Translations under genes and position numbers: made by a program
IMG/VR virus record: IMGVR_UViG_3300036827_000012
Span: 1-38,084 of that record
Length of the DNA stretch: 38,084 nt
DNA from: a virus
Strand: one strand, 5' to 3'
The notes under the pieces: generated by a model
What the model was told of the DNA's origin: nothing
The model's database searches: none
The model's input: only the letters and a program-made list of their open reading frames with translations
In this document: piece after piece, positions 15,501 through 35,698 of the stretch
How positions within the stretch are numbered: the first letter of the stretch is position 1
Layout: every line of letters starts with the position of its first letter

Positions 15501-15653
15501 ATGAAAAACAGCCTTAAATTGGCATATTTAGCTAATAAACCTAAGACTATTTGGTGGAAGGTAATAGCACCTAAAAATGCGAGATTATCACCAATTCAAA
15601 GATATGATTTAATTTATGATGAGAAAGATTTAAAGATTAGGAGACTTATATAA
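15501..15653 (+). CDS. 50-residue basic early protein
   Basis: A short ORF, MKNSLKLAYLANKPKTIWWK..., 15 bases after the preceding gene. Basic with several aromatic residues. It ends against an A+T-rich palindrome followed by a T-run (about 15646-15676) that could act as a weak terminator. Confidence 0.45.
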   Translation: MKNSLKLAYLANKPKTIWWKVIAPKNARLSPIQRYDLIYDEKDLKIRRLI

Positions 15654-15855
15654 ATTTTTTTGTATATAATTTTTCTGTGAGATATTTTTAAGCAATGATA
15701 AAATTTTGTGAGTAATTTTGGAGAGGTGATTCATTCGGCCCTTTGCACCCCCCGTCACCCCCTCATACCCCGTCAAGGATTATAGCTTAGGCAGCTTTCC
15801 AACTGTCGTTATATAGGGCAATATACTACGTTCTAAGGCAATATCTCGCGAGGTT

Positions 15856-15895
15856 ATCATATTGTATCATATTGTATAGAAGAGTATAGAAGAGT
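15856..15895. repeat. Two consecutive 10-bp tandem duplications
   Basis: ATCATATTGT is repeated perfectly at 15856-15865 and 15866-15875, directly followed by ATAGAAGAGT at 15876-15885 and 15886-15895. Confidence 0.85.
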
Positions 15896-15916
15896 CATTT
15901 TTTAATATGAATTCTT

Positions 15917-15945
15917 TTGTAACATACTATAAGATACAGTATAAA
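15917..15945 (+). promoter_or_regulatory. Possible sigma-70 promoter
   Basis: TTGTAA (15917-15922), a 17-base spacer and TATAAA (15940-15945). It would drive the 16.2-16.6 kb genes. In so A+T-rich a region chance matches are likely. Confidence 0.35.
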
Positions 15946-16064
15946 CATATTGTTCTCATATTGATTATACTGTTTACAACTGTAAGTATACTATAACATA
16001 CTAATGTATACTATTTAGTGGCAGGATAGACTGCCTCTTGAAAGTTGTAATGTAAGAGTAACTG

Positions 16065-16109
16065 GTTGTGCAACTTTAAGCATAGCGGTAAGTTGCATGT
16101 TGTGCAACT
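16065..16109. repeat. Iteron-like GTTGTGCAAC pair with inverted repeat
   Basis: GTTGTGCAAC occurs at 16065-16074 and 16099-16108. Both are followed by related ATAGCG(G/T)TAAG. The second also forms the inverted repeat AGTTGCA/TGCAACT (16091-16109). These could be binding sites for an initiator or repressor. Confidence 0.55.
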
Positions 16110-16232
16110 ATAGCGTTAAGTGTGACGATATGCGACAGTACATAACATGAACAGCCACCTGGCAGACAATTGCTCTGCTTAAGTGGCTTTGCTATGTGTG
16201 GAATGTGCAATCAAGCACAACGGAGCGAAGCT

Positions 16233-16376
16233 ATGACATTCAAGTATACCAAGCGAGGAGGAATGCGGTTCCTGAGAATAGGACGCATCCAACTAACTAT
16301 CTGTATCTGCAAAACAGTAGCTTGGGTAATGCCTGAGATACTGGACCTTAACCGCAAACCTTATCAAGGGAGATAA
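16233..16376 (+). CDS. Small basic protein with GGMRFLRIGR motif
   Basis: 47 residues from an ATG preceded by GGAG eight bases upstream. The N terminus MTFKYTKRGGMRFLRIGRIQ resembles short conserved ORFs of alphaproteobacterial phages, of unknown function. A longer in-frame start at 16170 lacks a good ribosome-binding site. Confidence 0.5.
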   Translation: MTFKYTKRGGMRFLRIGRIQLTICICKTVAWVMPEILDLNRKPYQGR

Positions 16377-16378
16377 CC

Positions 16379-16612
16379 ATGTATTATTGTATCGTGAAAC
16401 AAGAGCGGCCTAATCTCAATGCTTGCTTAGGTAATGGTAAGCAATGCGATATATGTACTAACTATCAATCAGGTAATGAGCGTCCTCAATATCCCGTGCC
16501 TGCAATACCTGTTCTATTTGATCCGATCACAGCATTCCATCAAGGTAAGGTGTATCACGGCACATTCATTGAACATGCAATAACAGGTGAAACACTGAAT
16601 TGGTACGAATAG
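16379..16612 (+). CDS. Small Cys-containing early protein
   Basis: 77 residues, MYYCIVKQERPNLNACLGNG..., with CDICTNYQSGNERPQYPVP. CxxC plus upstream cysteines could bind a metal. Two bases after the preceding gene and just before a promoter-operator. Function unknown. Confidence 0.5.
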   Translation: MYYCIVKQERPNLNACLGNGKQCDICTNYQSGNERPQYPVPAIPVLFDPITAFHQGKVYHGTFIEHAITGETLNWYE

Positions 16613-16624
16613 CCCTAAACCTAT

Positions 16625-16657
16625 TCGACATAACCATTAAACCTATTATAATGGTTA
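16625..16657 (+). promoter_or_regulatory. Promoter with overlapping operator-like inverted repeat
   Basis: TCGACA (16625-16630), 16-base spacer and consensus TATAAT (16647-16652) followed by GG. A perfect 9-bp inverted repeat TAACCATTA (16631-16639) / TAATGGTTA (16649-16657) fills the spacer and the -10 box, the geometry of a repressor site. It precedes the 16735 gene. Confidence 0.65.
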
Positions 16658-16734
16658 TATTGATAGTTGCTACAGAGCGGCGATGGTATGTGCGCCGCTC
16701 TAAGCAGCAATCAAGCTGCATAGGAGACTACGTT

Positions 16735-18324
16735 ATGGCTACGACAATCACTCTGAAGACTAAGAAGCCCGCCACTGCTAAGGTATCTAACAAGGTAGAG
16801 CAACCGGCTATGATCGATAAGGCATTAGAGAACGCTATTCGTGCGGCATACTCGCAGACATACTATGCTGACCCTGTGCTGCAACAAGGTGATGCGGTCT
16901 GCACTCTGTCACCTGAGTACATCACGCAAGTCGTGAACCATGTCAGGGCGCAGAATGCAAACGTTCCTATCACTGCCGCAACGTTCTCCATCAAGGATGG
17001 CGCATGGGAACATGAGATCGCAGGCATTGTGCTTGCGGCTGTGAGTGAGGCGGAGAGCAATCAAGCTAACCAGCAAGATACTTCGCCTGATCTCTCTCCA
17101 ACCGAGATACGTTCTAGTGCTGCTGCTGCTGCAATGGTCATGAACAATGACGCTGAAATCAATGACGTGTTGTCGCGTGTTGTCATTAGCGAACACACAA
17201 GGCGTACTGCGCCGGCTCTGCTTGCCTTCAGACTGAAGAATGACTTTGTTCGCTTCGCGGATGACGGCACTCTGCTATGCAACATGATTGAAGGGACGGG
17301 ACCGGAGTTCGACGGCAATGCTTATTCCCCTTGGCCGGCAATCGGTACGAAAGAGACCGACAAGGACGGCAAGAAGATCAACAATAACCCAGATATATCG
17401 AAGGTTAAGTCTACCGAAAACAAGTCAGGGTTTGTCGAAGTCTCTTGGTATTACCAAGCTATCTGTATGTCCACCGAAGGGAAGAAGTTCGCTGCCCTTA
17501 TCAAGGAATATCATGCGGCTGCGAATGAGAACCCTTCGGGTAGGTTTGCCGATAAGCACTCGCCTGATTATCTAGGACGTGGTGCCGCATCGAAGGAAGC
17601 CATTCGGTGCAAGTCAGCATTGCAGGATATGACTAAGGCATTAAAGAAGGCGACCATGATACTCCGTCATATGTGGAGCGTTGACGAAATGGCACCTGAA
17701 GGACAGCCGCCTCGTTGCACTGCCCGGTTTGACGTTGCTCATACTTGGGACGTGAAAGAGCAATGCTGGAATGATGACGAGACCAAACTGATGGAGTCAG
17801 CTGCGCCCATCATCGTCACAGACAACGTGTCCAGGGAAACCGAACGCTTTGACGTTAACCGTTTCTTGGGAATGGACACATACACGGCAGGCATCAACGG
17901 CGGCTCAATGTCGGACCTGCTAAAGGCCGTGGGCAAGGCAAAGATCAAGAGGACTCCCGGCAGTGGCACAGGACAGACACCACAAAGCCCGATCAACGAA
18001 AAGGCCACGGCAATGACGATGGATGAAACGTCTACCGCCTTTGCACGTATGGCAACGACAGTCGAGACTACAGCGGCATGGGCCAATTATGAACGCTATC
18101 TCTCGACTGCCGATCATGACGATGCACTGCAATCGACGTGGCGCATACTGGTTGCGGTGCAAGCCATGTTCCAAACTAAACCCGACTTCCGAGCTAGGAT
18201 CGTCAAGCTGGAGAAGATGAAGGCCGAGTCGGTGGACGATATCGCAGGGCTGGGACCGAAGACGGTAGCACCTGCTGCTGGTGGCACACGAGAGAAGTTG
18301 ATACTTGCTAGCAAGCGTGCCTAA
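16735..18324 (+). CDS. Large early protein, unknown function
   Basis: 529 residues from the ATG after TAGGAG. No signal peptide or membrane span. The N-terminal third is Ala-rich and helical (LENAIRAAYSQTYYADPVL, AAAAAMVMNNDAEINDVLS). The middle has charged segments (GPEFDGNAYSPWPAIGTKET, HSPDYLGRGAASKEAIRCK). A Thr/Pro-rich linker around residue 420 leads to a helical C terminus. It has its own promoter and a strong terminator right behind it, so it forms a single-gene transcription unit with probably high early expression. No family recognised. Confidence 0.65.
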   Translation: MATTITLKTKKPATAKVSNKVEQPAMIDKALENAIRAAYSQTYYADPVLQQGDAVCTLSPEYITQVVNHVRAQNANVPITAATFSIKDGAWEHEIAGIVLAAVSEAESNQANQQDTSPDLSPTEIRSSAAAAAMVMNNDAEINDVLSRVVISEHTRRTAPALLAFRLKNDFVRFADDGTLLCNMIEGTGPEFDGNAYSPWPAIGTKETDKDGKKINNNPDISKVKSTENKSGFVEVSWYYQAICMSTEGKKFAALIKEYHAAANENPSGRFADKHSPDYLGRGAASKEAIRCKSALQDMTKALKKATMILRHMWSVDEMAPEGQPPRCTARFDVAHTWDVKEQCWNDDETKLMESAAPIIVTDNVSRETERFDVNRFLGMDTYTAGINGGSMSDLLKAVGKAKIKRTPGSGTGQTPQSPINEKATAMTMDETSTAFARMATTVETTAAWANYERYLSTADHDDALQSTWRILVAVQAMFQTKPDFRARIVKLEKMKAESVDDIAGLGPKTVAPAAGGTREKLILASKRA

Positions 18325-23940: not shown

Positions 23941-23976
23941 CGTTAACCTCAGCAAATGCTGATTGGAGCGAACCAA

Positions 23977-25314
23977 ATGTATATGTTCTCGAAAAAGGGT
24001 CACATCCCTCCGTTAACCGCTTTCGAAGCTGCGACCAAGGATCACAGAGAAGCCTTTGGCATGGCAGCTGTTGTCGATAACGACATCGTCCATCAGGTCG
24101 GCGCTCTGCCGTGGGAAGACGACAAAAAGCAAGTGGCTGACCTCCATGCTATGGCCGAGTCCTATAAGGACAACACCTGCTTATACTGGTTCAGCGACAG
24201 TGTCGTCCCAACTGAACAACCCTTCATCATCTTTGAAGCAGAAGTCGAAGGCAAGACTTCCATTCAGGCCGTAATTGCTCTGGCTGGTGATTACGAAAAG
24301 CATGAAGACGAGAACGTGCCTGAAAGCCCTGAGAAGATTTGTTTTGACAATCTTCTCAAGCCACGGCTAGATGAGATTGCCACTAAGGTAAAGTTCGAAC
24401 CTGACGGCATCCAATCTTATCTCCAAGACAAAGATCAAGCCACTGCGTTTCTCGACGGTGCCACGTCTGAAACATCGGACATCTGTCTGATGTTCGCCAG
24501 CGGCGGAGACGAAGGCAAAGGTTTCCTGATGAATTTCGAGGGCTCCGAAAGCCCTTGCAAGCATTTCTCGTGGGGATACATGAGCGATCCCCTCGGCTAT
24601 ACCGAAGACAAGGCTGGCGCCACTACCAAAGGTGGCAAGATTTCTTTAGCGCCGAAGAAGAACATTACCGCCGAGATGGATAAAGCCATCGGCACAAAAA
24701 TACTCATTTCGATGCATCCGCCGAAGTCTGTCAAGTCTTCCAAAGACTTGGTCACGTGGTATCAGACATGGAACGAAGCCAAAGACAGCAAAGGCAAAGG
24801 CATCGTTCCTGAGAACATGACCAAGCGTCCGCCGATTGATGTAGATAAAGCAAAGTGGGAAGCCGAGCCCTTTCAGAAAGGTGTTAAAGGAACTACAGCA
24901 ACCTCTGTTCCACCTACTGCCGGCACCACCTCAACCAAAATTGCTACGGCTACCCAAAAAACCGGGGTTCATCATGTGACTTTCAACCCTACGCTTTCAG
25001 CGGCAGACAAAGCCGAACTGACGGGTGGATGGTTGCGTGAAGGTTTTATCAACGATGCCACTACTGCAACCAAATCTCTGGCAGATGCTGAATATAAAGT
25101 CCCTACGTTCGTCGAAGTTACCGGCATCTCCGCGAATGATTTGTTGCGCCATACACCAACGTCACTCAACTACCTCGTGCGTAAGCATGAAACATTGGCT
25201 ACCAACCTAATTGTCGAACTGCTTCGATTGTGCGCCCAAAAGGGCGTTCTAACGGTGAAGTCTCCCACCGATAAGCCGGCTACGAAGATCCAATTGAAAG
25301 GCAAAGCTGCTTGA
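23977..25314 (+). CDS. Large early protein, unknown function
   Basis: 445 residues from the ATG with TTGGAGCG upstream. Acidic N-terminal 300 residues (VVDNDIVHQVGALPWEDDKK, FLMNFEGSESPCKHFSWGY), a Thr/Pro/Ala-rich linker near 305-335, and a helical C-terminal domain (ELTGGWLREGFINDATTATK ... LVRKHETLATNLIVELLRLC). It is abundant-protein-like in composition and lies before the replication module. Not recognised; a recombination or host-control role cannot be assigned. Confidence 0.6.
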   Translation: MYMFSKKGHIPPLTAFEAATKDHREAFGMAAVVDNDIVHQVGALPWEDDKKQVADLHAMAESYKDNTCLYWFSDSVVPTEQPFIIFEAEVEGKTSIQAVIALAGDYEKHEDENVPESPEKICFDNLLKPRLDEIATKVKFEPDGIQSYLQDKDQATAFLDGATSETSDICLMFASGGDEGKGFLMNFEGSESPCKHFSWGYMSDPLGYTEDKAGATTKGGKISLAPKKNITAEMDKAIGTKILISMHPPKSVKSSKDLVTWYQTWNEAKDSKGKGIVPENMTKRPPIDVDKAKWEAEPFQKGVKGTTATSVPPTAGTTSTKIATATQKTGVHHVTFNPTLSAADKAELTGGWLREGFINDATTATKSLADAEYKVPTFVEVTGISANDLLRHTPTSLNYLVRKHETLATNLIVELLRLCAQKGVLTVKSPTDKPATKIQLKGKAA

Positions 25315-31283: not shown

Positions 31284-31321
31284 CGAAAGGGCATTAGCGA
31301 AAGTTAGTGCCCTTTCGTTTT
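31284..31321 (+). terminator. Rho-independent terminator
   Basis: Ten perfect pairs CGAAAGGGCA (31284-31293) / TGCCCTTTCG (31308-31317) followed by TTTT. It closes the replication-gene transcription unit, so genes and RNA beyond it need a new promoter or read-through. Confidence 0.85.
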
Positions 31322-31336
31322 CCAAAGGAGGAAGGA

Positions 31337-31546
31337 ATGCACGATGATGTCAGATATTACAAACGAGTCTCAGTCTGTGAAAAGGTGGCCATTCAAAAGA
31401 TGGTCAGCGCAGGAAGAGGAAGACGGAGACGTGTCAAGACAGTCTTCAAATGGCAGTGTAGACCATCTATTCGCATGATCAATGAGGGTGAGTACCCAAT
31501 CATGAATGAAATTCAGAAGATCTCATATAAATTGACGATCTTCTAA
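31337..31546 (+). CDS. Small basic protein upstream of the giant RNA
   Basis: 69 residues from ATG preceded by AAGGAGGAAGGA. Basic, MHDDVRYYKRVSVCEKVAIQ..., with AGRGRRRRVKTVFKW. It lies between a terminator and the structured RNA region, and its charge would suit RNA binding; that is inference only. Confidence 0.55.
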   Translation: MHDDVRYYKRVSVCEKVAIQKMVSAGRGRRRRVKTVFKWQCRPSIRMINEGEYPIMNEIQKISYKLTIF

Positions 31547-32234
31547 CGAAGTAACCCCGGTAGTCCTGGCAGTATTTGTGTGCTTTTATGCACTGGCCCT
31601 GATGACTGGCGCCAGCCTAAGTCGTCCTAGGCAAAGGAGTGTAGTTGTAGCTGGATGCGCTCTATACGCACAAGGACGCCGGGGTTACACTAATTCAGTT
31701 TAGGAACTGCGAAGACTGGTGAGCATTCAGCCACCGACTAGTGGTTACCTAATCCCGAGAATACCTTCACGACTATGTTAGCCAGATCACGGTCACGGTA
31801 TCAGCCAGTTGTGATGCCCGCTGTCCAGTGTTGTCCAATGTAGTGCTGAGTGCGAAGATTTCTCGGCCTACCGAACCCATGGGTACGTATTAAGACCTAG
31901 ATCGGCACGCGTATGTATGGCTGAAGTAGGGTGCACTCATCTGAGTGTGATGTAGGGGTGCGATCCCGCCCGTCTTGTATCCCGTGCGGTACGATGGAGG
32001 CTAAAAAGTAACTGCATTCGGGAATAGGAAAGGCCTGCTCTCCGCAGGCTATGGCAAACAGTGAGGACGTGCAGCAGGTGTTCAAAAGACAAGCCAGATA
32101 GACGTGAAAGGCGGTGAATGCCTCTAGTCAATGTGATCCTGGTAACTAGTCTTAGTAATCTTCCTAGATTTTGACAGATACAGGGCCGATTGTGCAGTTA
32201 GCCCTGCCCGTTTGGAAACGGCTGTCTTAATCAT

Positions 32235-32270
32235 GCAGGTTCGATCCCTGCCAGTGGTGTGTAACCGCTG
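32235..32270 (+). other. tRNA-like module 1: T-arm plus acceptor-like stem in permuted order
   Basis: A perfect T-arm GCAGG-TTCGATC-CCTGC (32235-32251) is followed without gap by seven bases CAGTGGT (32252-32258), a five-base loop GTGTA and ACCGCTG (32264-32270). These pair over seven positions (one G-T). The 5+7 bp stack has exactly the tRNA T/acceptor dimensions, but the second acceptor strand lies downstream instead of upstream. No matching 5' acceptor strand or canonical anticodon arm is found upstream. Confidence 0.55.
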
Positions 32271-32700
32271 TGGCGTAAAAAGTCGGGGACAAGTTTGTGG
32301 TGATCCAAACACTGGCTAGTTTGGCCCCCCTAGGCAACCGTAAGGAAGATAGCATCGGCAATAAAAGTTCAAACATGAACAGGAGATCATCCCAGTCGAC
32401 TGAAAACTGTCCCATGGTGAATGGATTACAGAAAGATTGTCGACGACTCACCTTAGTAATGGATGAATGAACAAGACAAGCACGGACAAGTAAGGGTTAT
32501 CCCTCGGAAATCTCATCTTCATGAGATACCTAAGATGCTAAAAGAGCAACAGTCCATACTCGACACGGTGCCCGAAAAGGCCTTTCACCAAGAGGATTTA
32601 TCCCCACCACATTAAGTGGAGTGGACTAACGTCCGCTTTAATATTGTGGACATGGATGTGCAGCTTTCATCGGGGCAGGAGACTGCTCAAACCCTGGACA

Positions 32701-32793
32701 CGCGCTAAGGGCTGAAACGATGTTAAGTGCTCTCCTCAGTCAGTAGACCTGTTAAAAGGTTAAGGTATTGTAGGTTCGAACCCTACCAGCGCG
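32701..32793 (+). other. tRNA-like module 2
   Basis: A perfect T-arm GTAGG-TTCGAAC-CCTAC (32770-32786) with CAGCGCG behind it. CGCGCT at 32701-32706 pairs with AGCGCG (32788-32793), giving a 93-base element. A D-loop-like AGTCAGTA and an anticodon-loop-like CTGTTAA (as in tRNA-Asn) occur between them, but they are not flanked by proper stems, and G18G19 and U8 equivalents are lacking. CAGCG can alternatively pair with CGCTG at 32801-32805. It is a tRNA-like domain or a decayed tRNA; no encoded CCA. Confidence 0.5.
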
Positions 32794-33542
32794 AATGCTG
32801 ATCGCTGACTTAGTATGTGAGATGGCTCGATCTAGCAACATCTAGGGAGCTTGGGTGAAACCAAGTGTCATTCAGTCTGAATAACTGAATGTTGTGGGAG
32901 TGATGAACCATCCGTGGCTTATGACTGATCTGCTGTAGGATAATGCTCTAGTTAAATGCTTCGTAATTGGACGATGTCATGAACTGGAAAGCAAGCCCTG
33001 AAACAAACTTTGGTGTATAATAACGTTCCTCAGGTGGAATAGGAAAACCAAAGCAAAAGTACCAATACCCCGTTAACTCCGCAGTGAAGTGAAGAACTAG
33101 CTGATGGGGATAAGAGGCTCCAGTAGCGTAAGTAGTCTGCCAAGAAAGCTGATCCCAATGTACATGATCAGTGACGGTGATGCGTTTGTACCACCCCATC
33201 TGCTACGAATAGAGGAGCAGTATAAAAGGTGTGGGAGCTAAATGTGAGATACCGTGTAGGCACGAAACGTGAAAGATAGGCCCTCCTTTACGGGCTGACT
33301 TAACCAAAGGAAGAAAATAAAGATGCCTGAGATGACATAGGAGCCATTCTAGCGGCTATTCACCTTCATCTTTAGCATAATAAAACTTCCTCGCGACTCC
33401 AAAGCACGCCAGATTAGCGTACACTAGGAGCTAGAAGCGTGTCAGAAGTATTCAGGCTGGTAGTTTCCCAGTTCTGTCGAAAATGGCATTGGTAGCGAGA
33501 ACGTTAAGTCTCGCTAAATTCCTCAAACGGAAGGAGATGAAA

Positions 33543-33611
33543 ATGGGCATCACTCTGGACATGCGAGATGAGATAACTGTTAAACAACCTTGGAGCACGG
33601 GTCCGCCTTAA
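33543..33611 (+). CDS. 22-residue leader peptide ORF
   Basis: MGITLDMRDEITVKQPWSTG..., with an excellent GGAAGGAGATGAAA before ATG. It lies between the giant RNA and two strong hairpins. It may be a translated leader controlling the downstream membrane gene, or just a mini-gene. Confidence 0.45.
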   Translation: MGITLDMRDEITVKQPWSTGPP

Positions 33612-33614
33612 GAT

Positions 33615-33669
33615 GCTGCGCGCGTAGAACATGCCGCAGCGGGGGAGGAGGCTTAACAGCCACTCCCCC
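33615..33669 (+). ncRNA. Double-hairpin element after the leader ORF
   Basis: GCTGCG/CGCAGC (33615-33640), then GGGGGAG (33641-33647) / CTCCCCC (33663-33669) with inner GGCT-TAAC-AGCC. Immediately after the 22-codon ORF; no T-run follows. Confidence 0.6.
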
Positions 33670-33692
33670 CACATTCATAGGAGACTGTCGAC

Positions 33693-34001
33693 ATGAACCA
33701 ACCAATCATCATAGTTCCTGGGGGACAAGGCGGGGGATACAACAATCACCCTCGTCCACCGAGACGAAGGAAGAACAGAGCTGACAAAAAAGCTGACTCT
33801 GAAAAAGAAAAGAAAAAAAAGGAAGCTGAAACTAAAAAACAGTTGCGTTTGCGTATATTTTATGCTATAAGCATTTTTGTTCTCCCACTATTCGGCATTT
33901 CTGCCGCATTCGTTCTCCTCGCCGTTGGATTAGGTGCAGTTAAACTCACAGAGATTTCTGCATATCTCCTACGACTCATAGTTAATCAATCAGCACATTG
34001 A
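33693..34001 (+). CDS. Basic membrane protein
   Basis: 102 residues. A Gly/Pro-rich N terminus (IIIVPGGQGGGYNNHP), a highly charged Lys/Glu segment (DKKADSEKEKKKKEAETKKQ), then one or two transmembrane spans (FYAISIFVLPLFGISAAFVL; LLAVGLGAVKL). TAGGAG before ATG. Unknown function. Confidence 0.6.
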   Translation: MNQPIIIVPGGQGGGYNNHPRPPRRRKNRADKKADSEKEKKKKEAETKKQLRLRIFYAISIFVLPLFGISAAFVLLAVGLGAVKLTEISAYLLRLIVNQSAH

Positions 34002-34954
34002 AAACAATACATACTCTAATACCCGACATTTACAAGATCGTTAACACGAACTGGATGACGGATGAACTAGCCAACATACTGGCTAGGGACATCGCCAGTC
34101 GACTAGGGACCGGTAGGCAGGCGCGAAGGGCTCTGCGCCTTTCTGAACTCAGGCCTAGATGTCCCAAAGCCTTATGGCACAGTGTCCATACTCCTGAACT
34201 CGCAGCGCCGCTCCCGCCGTGGGTTCATATAAAGTTGATGTATGGACACATTCTTGAAGCCCTTGTCTTAACGCTAGCTAGAGCCGCTGGACATAAGGTT
34301 GAAGGAGAACAAGATGAATTGGTCTGCTGTGGGGTCGTGGGTCATCGGGACGCTGTTATTGATGGCTGCGTGGTCGATGTTAAGTCTTCTAGCGTTCTGG
34401 CTCTGGACAAGCTCAAAACTGGGTCCATTGAGCAGAACGACGGGTTTGGTTATCTTGATCAGCTTGACGCTTATATTGGCGGGAGTGCAACTGACTCACT
34501 TACAACCGTGAAAGATAAAGGCTATCTATTGGGCATTGGTAAAGAATTAGGACATTTAGCATTACATGAACACAAGTACAGAGCCAGTCATATTGAAGAA
34601 AGAATTCGGGATTATCAAAGGATTATTGCTCTCCCTGAACCGCCGAATTGCGAATGTGGAACTGAAGCTTTCACAAATGGAAACACGAAGCTTGATACCA
34701 GAGCAAGTTACGATGAAATGCGCTACGTCTGCTGGCCAAAACTTAGAACCTTTATCTACGCCAAAGGTCCAGTCTACCTGACCAACGTAGTTAAAGCACC
34801 TAAAGACGTCCCGGAGCTTGACAAACACGGGAGGATATGTTATAATGGGCTGTATAATGTTACGTGGCCGATGCAAATGTCTGAACCCGTGGCAGGAGTG
34901 CAAGCACATTCATCCTCTTCAGCGTCATCCCAAACCGGAAGACTACTACAATGA
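33998..34954 (+). CDS. PD-(D/E)XK exonuclease, RecB/Cas4-like
   Basis: 318 residues from TTG, overlapping the preceding stop as TTGA. The N terminus KTIHTLIPDIYK is usual for phage RecB-family nucleases. Motif I is YGHILEALVL near residue 80; core GHRDAVIDG near 115 and VVDVKSSS near 126 give the Asp and the DxK; QLDAYIGG near 154 is the QxxxY motif. Cysteines at about 54 (RPRCPK), 217 and 219 (NCECG) and 243 (RYVCW) resemble the Fe-S ligands of Cas4/AddB nucleases, although spacing differs. It likely serves host DNA degradation or recombination. Confidence 0.8.
   Translation: MKTIHTLIPDIYKIVNTNWMTDELANILARDIASRLGTGRQARRALRLSELRPRCPKALWHSVHTPELAAPLPPWVHIKLMYGHILEALVLTLARAAGHKVEGEQDELVCCGVVGHRDAVIDGCVVDVKSSSVLALDKLKTGSIEQNDGFGYLDQLDAYIGGSATDSLTTVKDKGYLLGIGKELGHLALHEHKYRASHIEERIRDYQRIIALPEPPNCECGTEAFTNGNTKLDTRASYDEMRYVCWPKLRTFIYAKGPVYLTNVVKAPKDVPELDKHGRICYNGLYNVTWPMQMSEPVAGVQAHSSSSASSQTGRLLQ
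34818..34846 (+). promoter_or_regulatory. Consensus promoter inside the exonuclease gene
   Basis: TTGACA (34818-34823), 17-base spacer and TATAAT (34841-34846) followed by GGG: a perfect sigma-70 site. It would transcribe the resolvase and peptidyl-tRNA hydrolase genes independently of upstream genes. Confidence 0.65.
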
Positions 34955-35069: not shown

Positions 35070-35550
35070 ATACGAGACAGAAAAGTTTGATTATGTCGTC
35101 TACGGCACTTACTGGTCAGACTTTAAAATTCACCGAGTTCTTCAAGAACCATTATATGTTGAAACCAAAGGTTACCTAAGACCTGAAGATAAAATCAAAC
35201 TTAGGGCAGTTAAGATCACTCATCCGGAATTAGACCTGCGTATACTGTTTTATGCCTACAAAAAGAAAGATACCCGTTGGGCAGACAAGTATCAGTTTAA
35301 ATACGCGATCGGTACAATTCCAGATGAATGGTTAAAGGATGCAGAACATGTCACTCAAAATGGTGATTGCAGTCCGTCAAGACATTCAAATGAACAAAGG
35401 CAAGACAGCTGCACAAGTAGCCCACGCCGCAGTCGGTTGCCTCGCAGACGTAAAAACAAGACATCCAATCGTAGATCGTTGGTTATCCACAGGAGAAGCA
35501 AAGATCGTGGTCAAAGCAACAGACTTGCAACAAATATACGATCTGGCTGA
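34999..35550 (+). CDS. Endonuclease I, Holliday-junction resolvase (T7 gp3-like)
   Basis: 183 residues. FEKKTLEHLEQKSIHVEYET supplies the N-terminal Glu, YGTYWSDFKI the Asp, and LYVETKGYL the Glu-x-Lys of the T7 endonuclease I active site. HPELDLRILFYAYKKKD and GTIPDEWLKD also match the family. It would resolve branched replication intermediates before packaging. The family usually ends soon after the EWLKD block (about residue 115); here the frame stays open for about 65 more residues rich in Arg and Ser, overlapping the next gene by about 200 bases. Confidence 0.85.
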   Translation: MGQLRNSFEKKTLEHLEQKSIHVEYETEKFDYVVYGTYWSDFKIHRVLQEPLYVETKGYLRPEDKIKLRAVKITHPELDLRILFYAYKKKDTRWADKYQFKYAIGTIPDEWLKDAEHVTQNGDCSPSRHSNEQRQDSCTSSPRRSRLPRRRKNKTSNRRSLVIHRRSKDRGQSNRLATNIRSG

Positions 35551-35698
35551 TCTTTGTCAGGCTCAAGGTTTAATGTACAACACTGTAACAGATAGTGGTA
35601 AAACTGTCTTTCATCAACCAACAGTAACGTGTATCGCAATTGGTCCTGATACCGTTGAACAAGTTGACTTAGTGACCAAAGGACTCAAACTCCTATGA
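35348..35698 (+). CDS. pth2: Peptidyl-tRNA hydrolase, PTH2 family
   Basis: 116 residues from the ATG with AAAGGA upstream; an in-frame ATG at 35339 is possible. MVIAVRQDIQMNKGKTAAQV with AHAAVG is the PTH2 signature (R.D..M..GK.AAQ..HA), and the C terminus TVTCIAIGPDTVEQVDLVTK plus GLKLL is the standard family ending. PTH2 recycles peptidyl-tRNA and is the archaeal/eukaryotic type, unlike the usual bacterial Pth. The whole family length is present. It lies 2 kb downstream of an RNA region containing tRNA-like modules. Confidence 0.88.
   Translation: MSLKMVIAVRQDIQMNKGKTAAQVAHAAVGCLADVKTRHPIVDRWLSTGEAKIVVKATDLQQIYDLADLCQAQGLMYNTVTDSGKTVFHQPTVTCIAIGPDTVEQVDLVTKGLKLL

Follow-up and report, generated by a model that had tools for sequence, protein, structure and literature searches.

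The gene-free region at 31,549-33,672 of the window (the whole stretch of viral DNA analysed here, an IMG/VR fragment of 38 kb) is predicted to encode a conserved structured noncoding RNA on the + strand, as demonstrated by covariation above a phylogenetic null. Within this RNA, window positions 32,221-32,353 form a circularly permuted tRNA cloverleaf, in which a T-arm, a sealed acceptor and a D-arm are followed by an "anticodon stem" that opens into the RNA. Its occurrence is confined to a single clade of phages with genomes of ~50 kb, relatives of the marine Zobellviridae type. Our proposal is that such RNAs make up a new class among the large noncoding RNAs of phages and serve as RNP scaffolds, which the product of the adjacent gene may tether to the membrane. 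We give this proposal an even chance: the function is inferred and there are no transcript data.

Extent and coding potential of the region

No genes were found at 31,549-33,672 on either strand, and the region is flanked by a small gene (31,307-31,546) and a membrane-protein gene (33,693-34,001) (Table 1). The longest open reading frame on either strand of 31,551-33,690 encodes 83 amino acids, as compared with a mean of 106 in shuffled sequence. Between the window and its nearest relative (L003), 30 of 42 insertions or deletions are not multiples of three. The first-pass annotation had described 31,551-33,516 as a candidate giant structured phage RNA without a credible open reading frame on either strand. 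Both parts of this description are borne out, the former by the comparative evidence below and the latter by the short reading frames; protein-like conservation, which would have refuted it, was not seen. The start position also stands, but the end does not: the feature extends to a conserved 3′ hairpin finishing at 33,669. The permuted core and the membrane protein had been missed.

Promoter signals were no commoner than expected by chance, and a scan for intrinsic terminators found none at its 3′ end. The last conserved hairpin lies ~20 nt ahead of the next start codon, directly upstream of the ribosome-binding site of the next gene. Because no promoter or terminator marks the ends and this hairpin adjoins a ribosome-binding site, a cis-acting role remains possible. 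The region would then be a structured leader, a long untranslated part of the replication operon controlling the stability or translation of the membrane protein, exonuclease and endonuclease, and the co-directional flanking genes are in keeping with this. However, 2 kb with elaborate, family-wide tRNA-like modules far exceeds the needs of any known leader, and RNA size and module order vary among relatives while the downstream gene remains present. We consider a leader rather improbable.

Table 1 Features of the RNA region and its flanking genes in the window.
Feature	Positions	Strand	Remarks
Upstream flanking small gene	31307..31546	+	likely start ATG 31337; homologue in L003
5′ domain, ~140 nt	31549..31690	+	closed by 11-bp helix 31551-31561/31678-31688; 4 compensatory pairs
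Main structured RNA	31693..33672	+	81 compensatory pairs, shuffle maximum 58
Family-wide conserved motif GGAGGCUAAAA	31996..32006	+	in 12 of 44 independent groups of relatives
"Anticodon stem" 3′ strand GCUGUCUU	32221..32228	+	pairs with 32346-32353
T-arm 1, GCAGG-UUCGAUC-CCUGC	32235..32251	+	tRNA T-stem and T-loop; within R1 match
Acceptor-stem analogue, CAGUGGU-GUGUA-ACCGCUG	32252..32270	+	7 bp, closed by a loop, no free 3′ end
D-arm	32271..32341	+	U8-G9; D-stem GCG (32273-32275)/CGU (32339-32341)
"Anticodon stem" 5′ strand AAGAUAGC	32346..32353	+	leads into remainder of RNA
Hairpin AUCUCAU-CUUC-AUGAGAU	32510..32527	+	another paired stem in its place in L003
T-arm 2, GUAGG-UUCGAAC-CCUAC	32770..32786	+	hairpin 32787-32807 directly after
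17-bp hairpin	32945..32992	+	3 compensatory and 12 unchanged pairs
Conserved motif CCUUAAGA, upstream of last hairpin	33604..33613	+	related CCACCUUAAG in 10 of 44 groups
3′-terminal G+C-rich hairpin, no U-tract	33641..33669	+	equivalent hairpin in relatives
102-aa protein	33693..34001	+	Arg/Lys-rich, one C-terminal transmembrane segment
Cas4-type exonuclease, downstream flanking gene	33998..34954	+	phrog_1990

Conservation of the fold

The polymerase of L003 is 77% identical to that of the window; for the RNA region, identity is 69% across 2,030 aligned positions. Folded jointly, the two sequences reach -427 kcal/mol, as against -296 ± 9 kcal/mol in 24 column-shuffled alignments (z = -14), and folding of the sense strand is more favourable than that of the antisense strand (-427 versus -375). 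The two sequences differ by 81 compensatory pairs, whereas column-shuffled controls averaged 45 and never exceeded 58. In an alignment of eight relatives, 17 of 291 pairs covaried significantly and none did so in ten null alignments. With twelve relatives, 16 of 119 pairs were significant, as compared with 0 or 1 in 40 refolded tree-based null alignments, and the fold energy was -139 against a null of -51 ± 6.5. These tests used our own R-scape-like implementation with a tree-based null, not R-scape itself. A covariation test of this kind had been suggested with the original annotation; compensatory changes and significant covariation in relatives were the outcome.

Folding of single sequences was not informative. 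Windows of 300 nt in the region gave z values from +0.4 to -3.8, and coding windows in the neighbouring polA gene reached -5.5; coding regions are thus equally low in window-wise folding energy. Because coding polA folds as well, helix counts in one sequence are not evidence here. The unremarkable single-sequence energy is what decayed genes or chance helices would give, but this explanation is refuted by the covariation tests, and the motif conservation and strand bias described below also speak against it; we regard it as practically ruled out. A search with RNA patterns for further close relatives of the window found only L003. Because L003 is the sole close relative, the window's own structure rests on two sequences together with family-wide motifs.

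Individual helices and the 5′ domain

Several helices proposed from the window alone could be followed in the alignment with L003. The long-range helix GTAACCCCGG/CCGGGGTTAC (31,551/31,679) is real; both sides are replaced in L003, where the helix is compensated as GTAACCTGACT/AGTCAGGTTAC. The hairpins with a CTTC loop (32,510-32,527) and a GAGA loop (32,673-32,688) are likewise maintained through compensatory change. For two further proposals, AGC.GATGGGG (33,099) with CCCCATC.GCT (33,194) and AGTCC..ACTC (32,551) with GAGTGGACT (32,619), the letters are as reported, but the pairings are probably wrong because the same strands covary in other, local helices (33,077-33,090/33,096-33,109, 33,191-33,197/33,228-33,234 and 32,614-32,623/32,630-32,638).

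The 5′ domain is far more conserved than the remainder, with 92.7% identity between the window and L003 over 123 bases, and it was not found in any locus other than these two. In L003, an open reading frame of 57 amino acids lies between this domain and the remainder of the RNA. The 140-nt domain may therefore be an RNA of its own, and the region possibly contains more than one RNA. Of the initial alternatives, a new class or a tandem of several RNAs, the second thus remains possible in this limited form.

Distribution in related phages

The gene set of the window is that of a T7-like phage, with a family A DNA polymerase, primase-helicase, Cas4-type exonuclease and endonuclease I. An identical stretch is present in a 50.8-kb contig (L002). 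By polymerase, the closest cultured relatives are marine Roseobacter phages including Zobellviridae (Cobavirinae), at 34-38% identity. A polymerase-based scan for bacterial hosts yielded one distant MAG contig. When GenBank phages were searched at the nucleotide level, only chance matches were obtained.

A polymerase-profile scan gave ~80 relatives. We defined the slot as the interval from the p158 gene (or the polymerase, if p158 was not found) to cas4; its length includes small flanking genes. All 58 in-clade loci in which both flanking genes are present have a slot of 1.5-4.9 kb (median 2.3 kb), whereas in four outgroups (polymerase identity ~45% or less) it measured 0.8-1.0 kb and was mostly coding. 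Genes occupy the slot in the cultured relatives. The RNA itself is ~2.1 kb long in the window and roughly 1-3 kb in relatives.

The sequences diverge fast, and iterated nucleotide profiles connect 18 loci, all on the sense strand. Besides the motifs in Table 1, relatives share GUAUCCUAGAA, GGUGACAGAC and CCUUAAG, the last near the 3′ end (window 33,606). Hairpins with 7-nt loops are 2.4 times commoner than in shuffled sequence. Certain loop sequences reappear in independent groups although the stems below them differ, namely CUCAUUA (10 groups), CUGUCUA (9), GUGAAA (10) and GUCCAAA, CUCUGAA and CAGAUAA (7 each), as do T-loops of the form UUCGANY and their relatives; shuffles reach 3. We counted strict T-arms, defined by a 5-bp stem, a tRNA T-loop and G53-C61. 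Slots contain 103 in sense and none in antisense orientation, as against 0-2 in shuffles (~0.5 expected), and five times as much flanking sequence contains 15. A single RNA carries up to five.

Further features of the window lie outside the RNA. At 31287-31321, upstream of it and between two small genes, a 15-bp hairpin with a GAAA loop is followed by GTTTTCC and looks like an intrinsic terminator or attenuator. An A-T-rich, gene-poor stretch at 15640-16380, between divergent structural and early genes, contains repeated words resembling TATTGTAT and TTGTGCAACT and is probably a divergent promoter or origin region. In the early region, 16600-18324 and 23956-25314 encode long predicted proteins of 574 and 452 amino acids without a PHROG match.

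A circularly permuted tRNA cloverleaf

The elements of the permuted cloverleaf are listed in Table 1. In the window, the D-loop contains a 54-nt hairpin insertion (32279-32332), followed by GGCAAC. The acceptor analogue is the same hairpin with a different sequence in L003. An alternative pairing of the anticodon stem, 32158-32164 (AUCUUCC) with 32344-32350 (GGAAGAU), is closer to the arrangement in L003. Downstream of the T-arm, many relatives have a short, stably capped hairpin or nothing, and then UGGYGNAA..GG.A.ACRC, which is a tRNA-Leu D-arm. The D-stem covaries among relatives (GCG/CGC to GUG/CAC), as does the T-stem, and the elbow residues are kept.

A covariance model of the T- and D-arms (R1) matched ~30 loci at E below 0.001, all in sense orientation and all in the slot except for ordinary tRNA-Leu genes. 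The match in the window (32235-32312, E 0.006) is weak because of the D-loop insertion. A strong helix at the anticodon position, between the strand after the D-arm and the strand before the T-arm, was present in 10 of 21 loci, versus 3.6% of mismatched controls (binomial p = 8e-10 with tRNA-like spacing; p = 0.0014 with loose spacing). The features that define a tRNA-like fold, namely a T-arm, a D-arm with GG and an anticodon stem in tRNA geometry, are thus all present. No free acceptor end with CCA was found, and the acceptor hairpin is closed or missing. Since, in addition, something else stands in place of the anticodon loop, the RNA is unlikely to be aminoacylated or to decode.

Elbow matches ~7-9 kb upstream of polA in four loci (L060, L048, L005 and L006) were rejected as members of the family; they are ordinary tRNA-Leu(UAA) genes, which some clade members carry at that distance from the end of polA (L060:1145-1222, L048:2287-2362, L005:3165 and L006:2665). 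Because the D- and T-arms of these genes are near-identical to those of the giant RNA, we infer that the permuted module may derive from a tandem duplication of a tRNA-Leu(UAA) gene.

Permuted tRNA-Leu-like units were also observed in viral contigs unrelated to the window (L115:7956-8008, L211, L218, L106, L116, L120, L149, L154, L216, L239 and L307). They consist of a T-arm, an acceptor capped by GAAA or a short loop, and a D-arm, and several lie within tRNA arrays, in genomes of up to 424 kb. L216, L120, L149 and L307 seemingly contain further permuted units of other isoacceptors, three of them with U-CCA-AUAU-like acceptor loops. At L139:7500-7720, as judged by eye, a permuted tRNA-Leu-like unit is apparently nested in another tRNA, with one fused anticodon-arm helix shared (a dumbbell). 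ARAGORN and Rfam missed the permuted units in these contigs. The anticodon-stem test gave weaker results for them than for the giant RNA.

Could the RNA be a precursor of real tRNAs, with permuted genes that intron halves may interrupt and transcripts that splicing or circularisation turns into working molecules? The order of T-arm, acceptor and D-arm resembles that of algal permuted tRNA genes, and similar units occur in the tRNA arrays of unrelated phages, as just described. However, the acceptors are stably capped or absent, CCA and an anticodon are lacking, and there was no match to group I or II introns, so that we judge this origin very unlikely. A permuted intron is detectable only in part by such a scan and is not absolutely excluded. 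A group I intron reading of the GACUA/UAGUC-like strands was dropped for want of a model match.

Alternatively, the T-arms, D-arm and anticodon-like 7-nt loops might act as a tRNA decoy that distracts host tRNA-acting proteins, such as anticodon nucleases or tRNA-modifying enzymes. The multiplicity of T-arms, the recurrence of CUCAUUA and CUGUCUA under changing stems and the retained elbow residues agree with this idea, and phage tRNAs have been proposed to evade tRNA-targeting host defences (PMC10264068). Against it, the acceptor is closed, variable or missing, the loops have no consistent match to known anticodon loops, and most of the RNA is not tRNA-like. A decoy therefore appears doubtful.

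The downstream membrane protein and a possible function

Proteins of the same kind as the 102-aa protein of the window are encoded behind the RNA in at least 47 of 58 RNA-bearing relatives (not detected in 11) and in none of the four outgroups; in the cultured outgroups, the proteins encoded ahead of the exonuclease are unrelated. In relatives, the protein is ~70-140 amino acids long; its N-terminal part varies and is often rich in Pro and Tyr, the central part is Lys/Glu- or Arg-rich, and a single transmembrane segment lies at the C terminus. Its gene often abuts cas4. Searches of protein families with the 102-aa protein gave no PHROG match and only isolated weak matches in Pfam. It is a likely partner of the RNA, but this is guesswork from gene order and charge, without binding data. 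The commonest downstream neighbour of OLE RNA is the membrane protein OapA, which localises OLE RNA to the membrane (PMC12265935). A gene for peptidyl-tRNA hydrolase 2 (PTH2) was observed at 35339-35698, overlapping endonuclease I; PTH2 was rejected as a functional partner, since among all other loci only L060 has a homologue, and a weak one.

In the scaffold model that we favour, the RNA would arise from transcription of the replication genes, either as a separate molecule or by processing, and would act as a scaffold. The tRNA elbow, that is, the contact of T-loop and D-loop, could be a folding joint or a docking site for a host elbow-binding factor. The Lys/Arg-rich membrane protein might hold the particle at the membrane of the infected host, in the way that OapA localises OLE RNA. 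Since the elbow is retained whereas the acceptor varies or is lacking, synthetases, EF-Tu and the CCA enzyme are unlikely partners; proteins that bind the elbow, or a role that is purely architectural, are more plausible than acceptor-dependent partners. A more specific form of the model is a categorically new RNA machine, one of the largest noncoding RNAs of phages and a phage counterpart of OLE/OapA, in which the permuted cloverleaf with its sealed acceptor is anchored to the membrane by a dedicated tail-anchored protein and its elbow captures a host translation or tRNA factor; we offer this only tentatively and would sooner expect it to fail than to hold.

Comparison with known RNA classes

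To our knowledge, large ornate noncoding RNAs are few, and what the phage-encoded ones (ROOL and GOLLD) do has yet to be established; nor do we know of a description in which a permuted tRNA fold is built into a much larger RNA as a structural element. A literature search of incomplete coverage found neither such an RNA nor such a fold. The RNA described here would add a longer class with handles that the others lack: a tRNA-derived core, a candidate protein partner next door and outgroup phages without the RNA.

The Rfam models for ROOL, GOLLD, OLE, raiA, tRNA, group I and II introns and RNase P gave no match in the window at E up to 5 or in seven relatives at E up to 3; with curated as with loose thresholds, Rfam scans yielded only spurious matches. 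This comparison with covariance models had been recommended in the first-pass annotation, and the RNA proved to be neither ROOL nor GOLLD. The universally conserved 3′ domain of GOLLD is absent, without even a partial match in the Rfam scans. ARAGORN detected neither a tRNA (a cloverleaf in normal order) nor a tmRNA in the region, and no tRNA genes near it.

Like GOLLD, the RNA is phage-encoded, large and intricate, and its function is unknown; many GOLLD members exceed 800 nt, and GOLLD linkers sometimes hold tRNAs (PMC12286853). Unlike in GOLLD, the tRNA-like part is permuted, closed and integral to the fold, the RNA is longer, and there is no tRNA island. With ROOL it shares large size, phage origin and the lack of protein-coding capacity, but no model matches, and the window RNA is not near tRNA islands and is about three times longer. 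The phage location, size and ornate fold would suit a divergent ROOL or GOLLD, i.e. a nanocage RNA of a known class; given the missing Rfam matches and a length two to three times too great, we think this extremely unlikely.

The permuted tmRNA of alphaproteobacteria and permuted algal tRNA genes have the same order of T-arm, acceptor 3′ strand, short spacer, acceptor 5′ strand and D-arm. They differ in that here the acceptor is sealed or absent, without CCA or a tag frame, the D-arm is of tRNA-Leu type, and ARAGORN gives no match. As in the OLE/OapA system, a large ornate RNA is followed immediately by a gene for a small membrane protein whose cytoplasmic part carries positive charge; OapA, however, has four predicted transmembrane helices and the window protein one, and OLE belongs to Gram-positive bacteria, whereas the present RNA belongs to phages. 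We therefore place the RNA as a new class within a known kind, the large ornate noncoding RNAs of phages; confirmation of the permuted core and of the membrane partner may warrant a higher rank.
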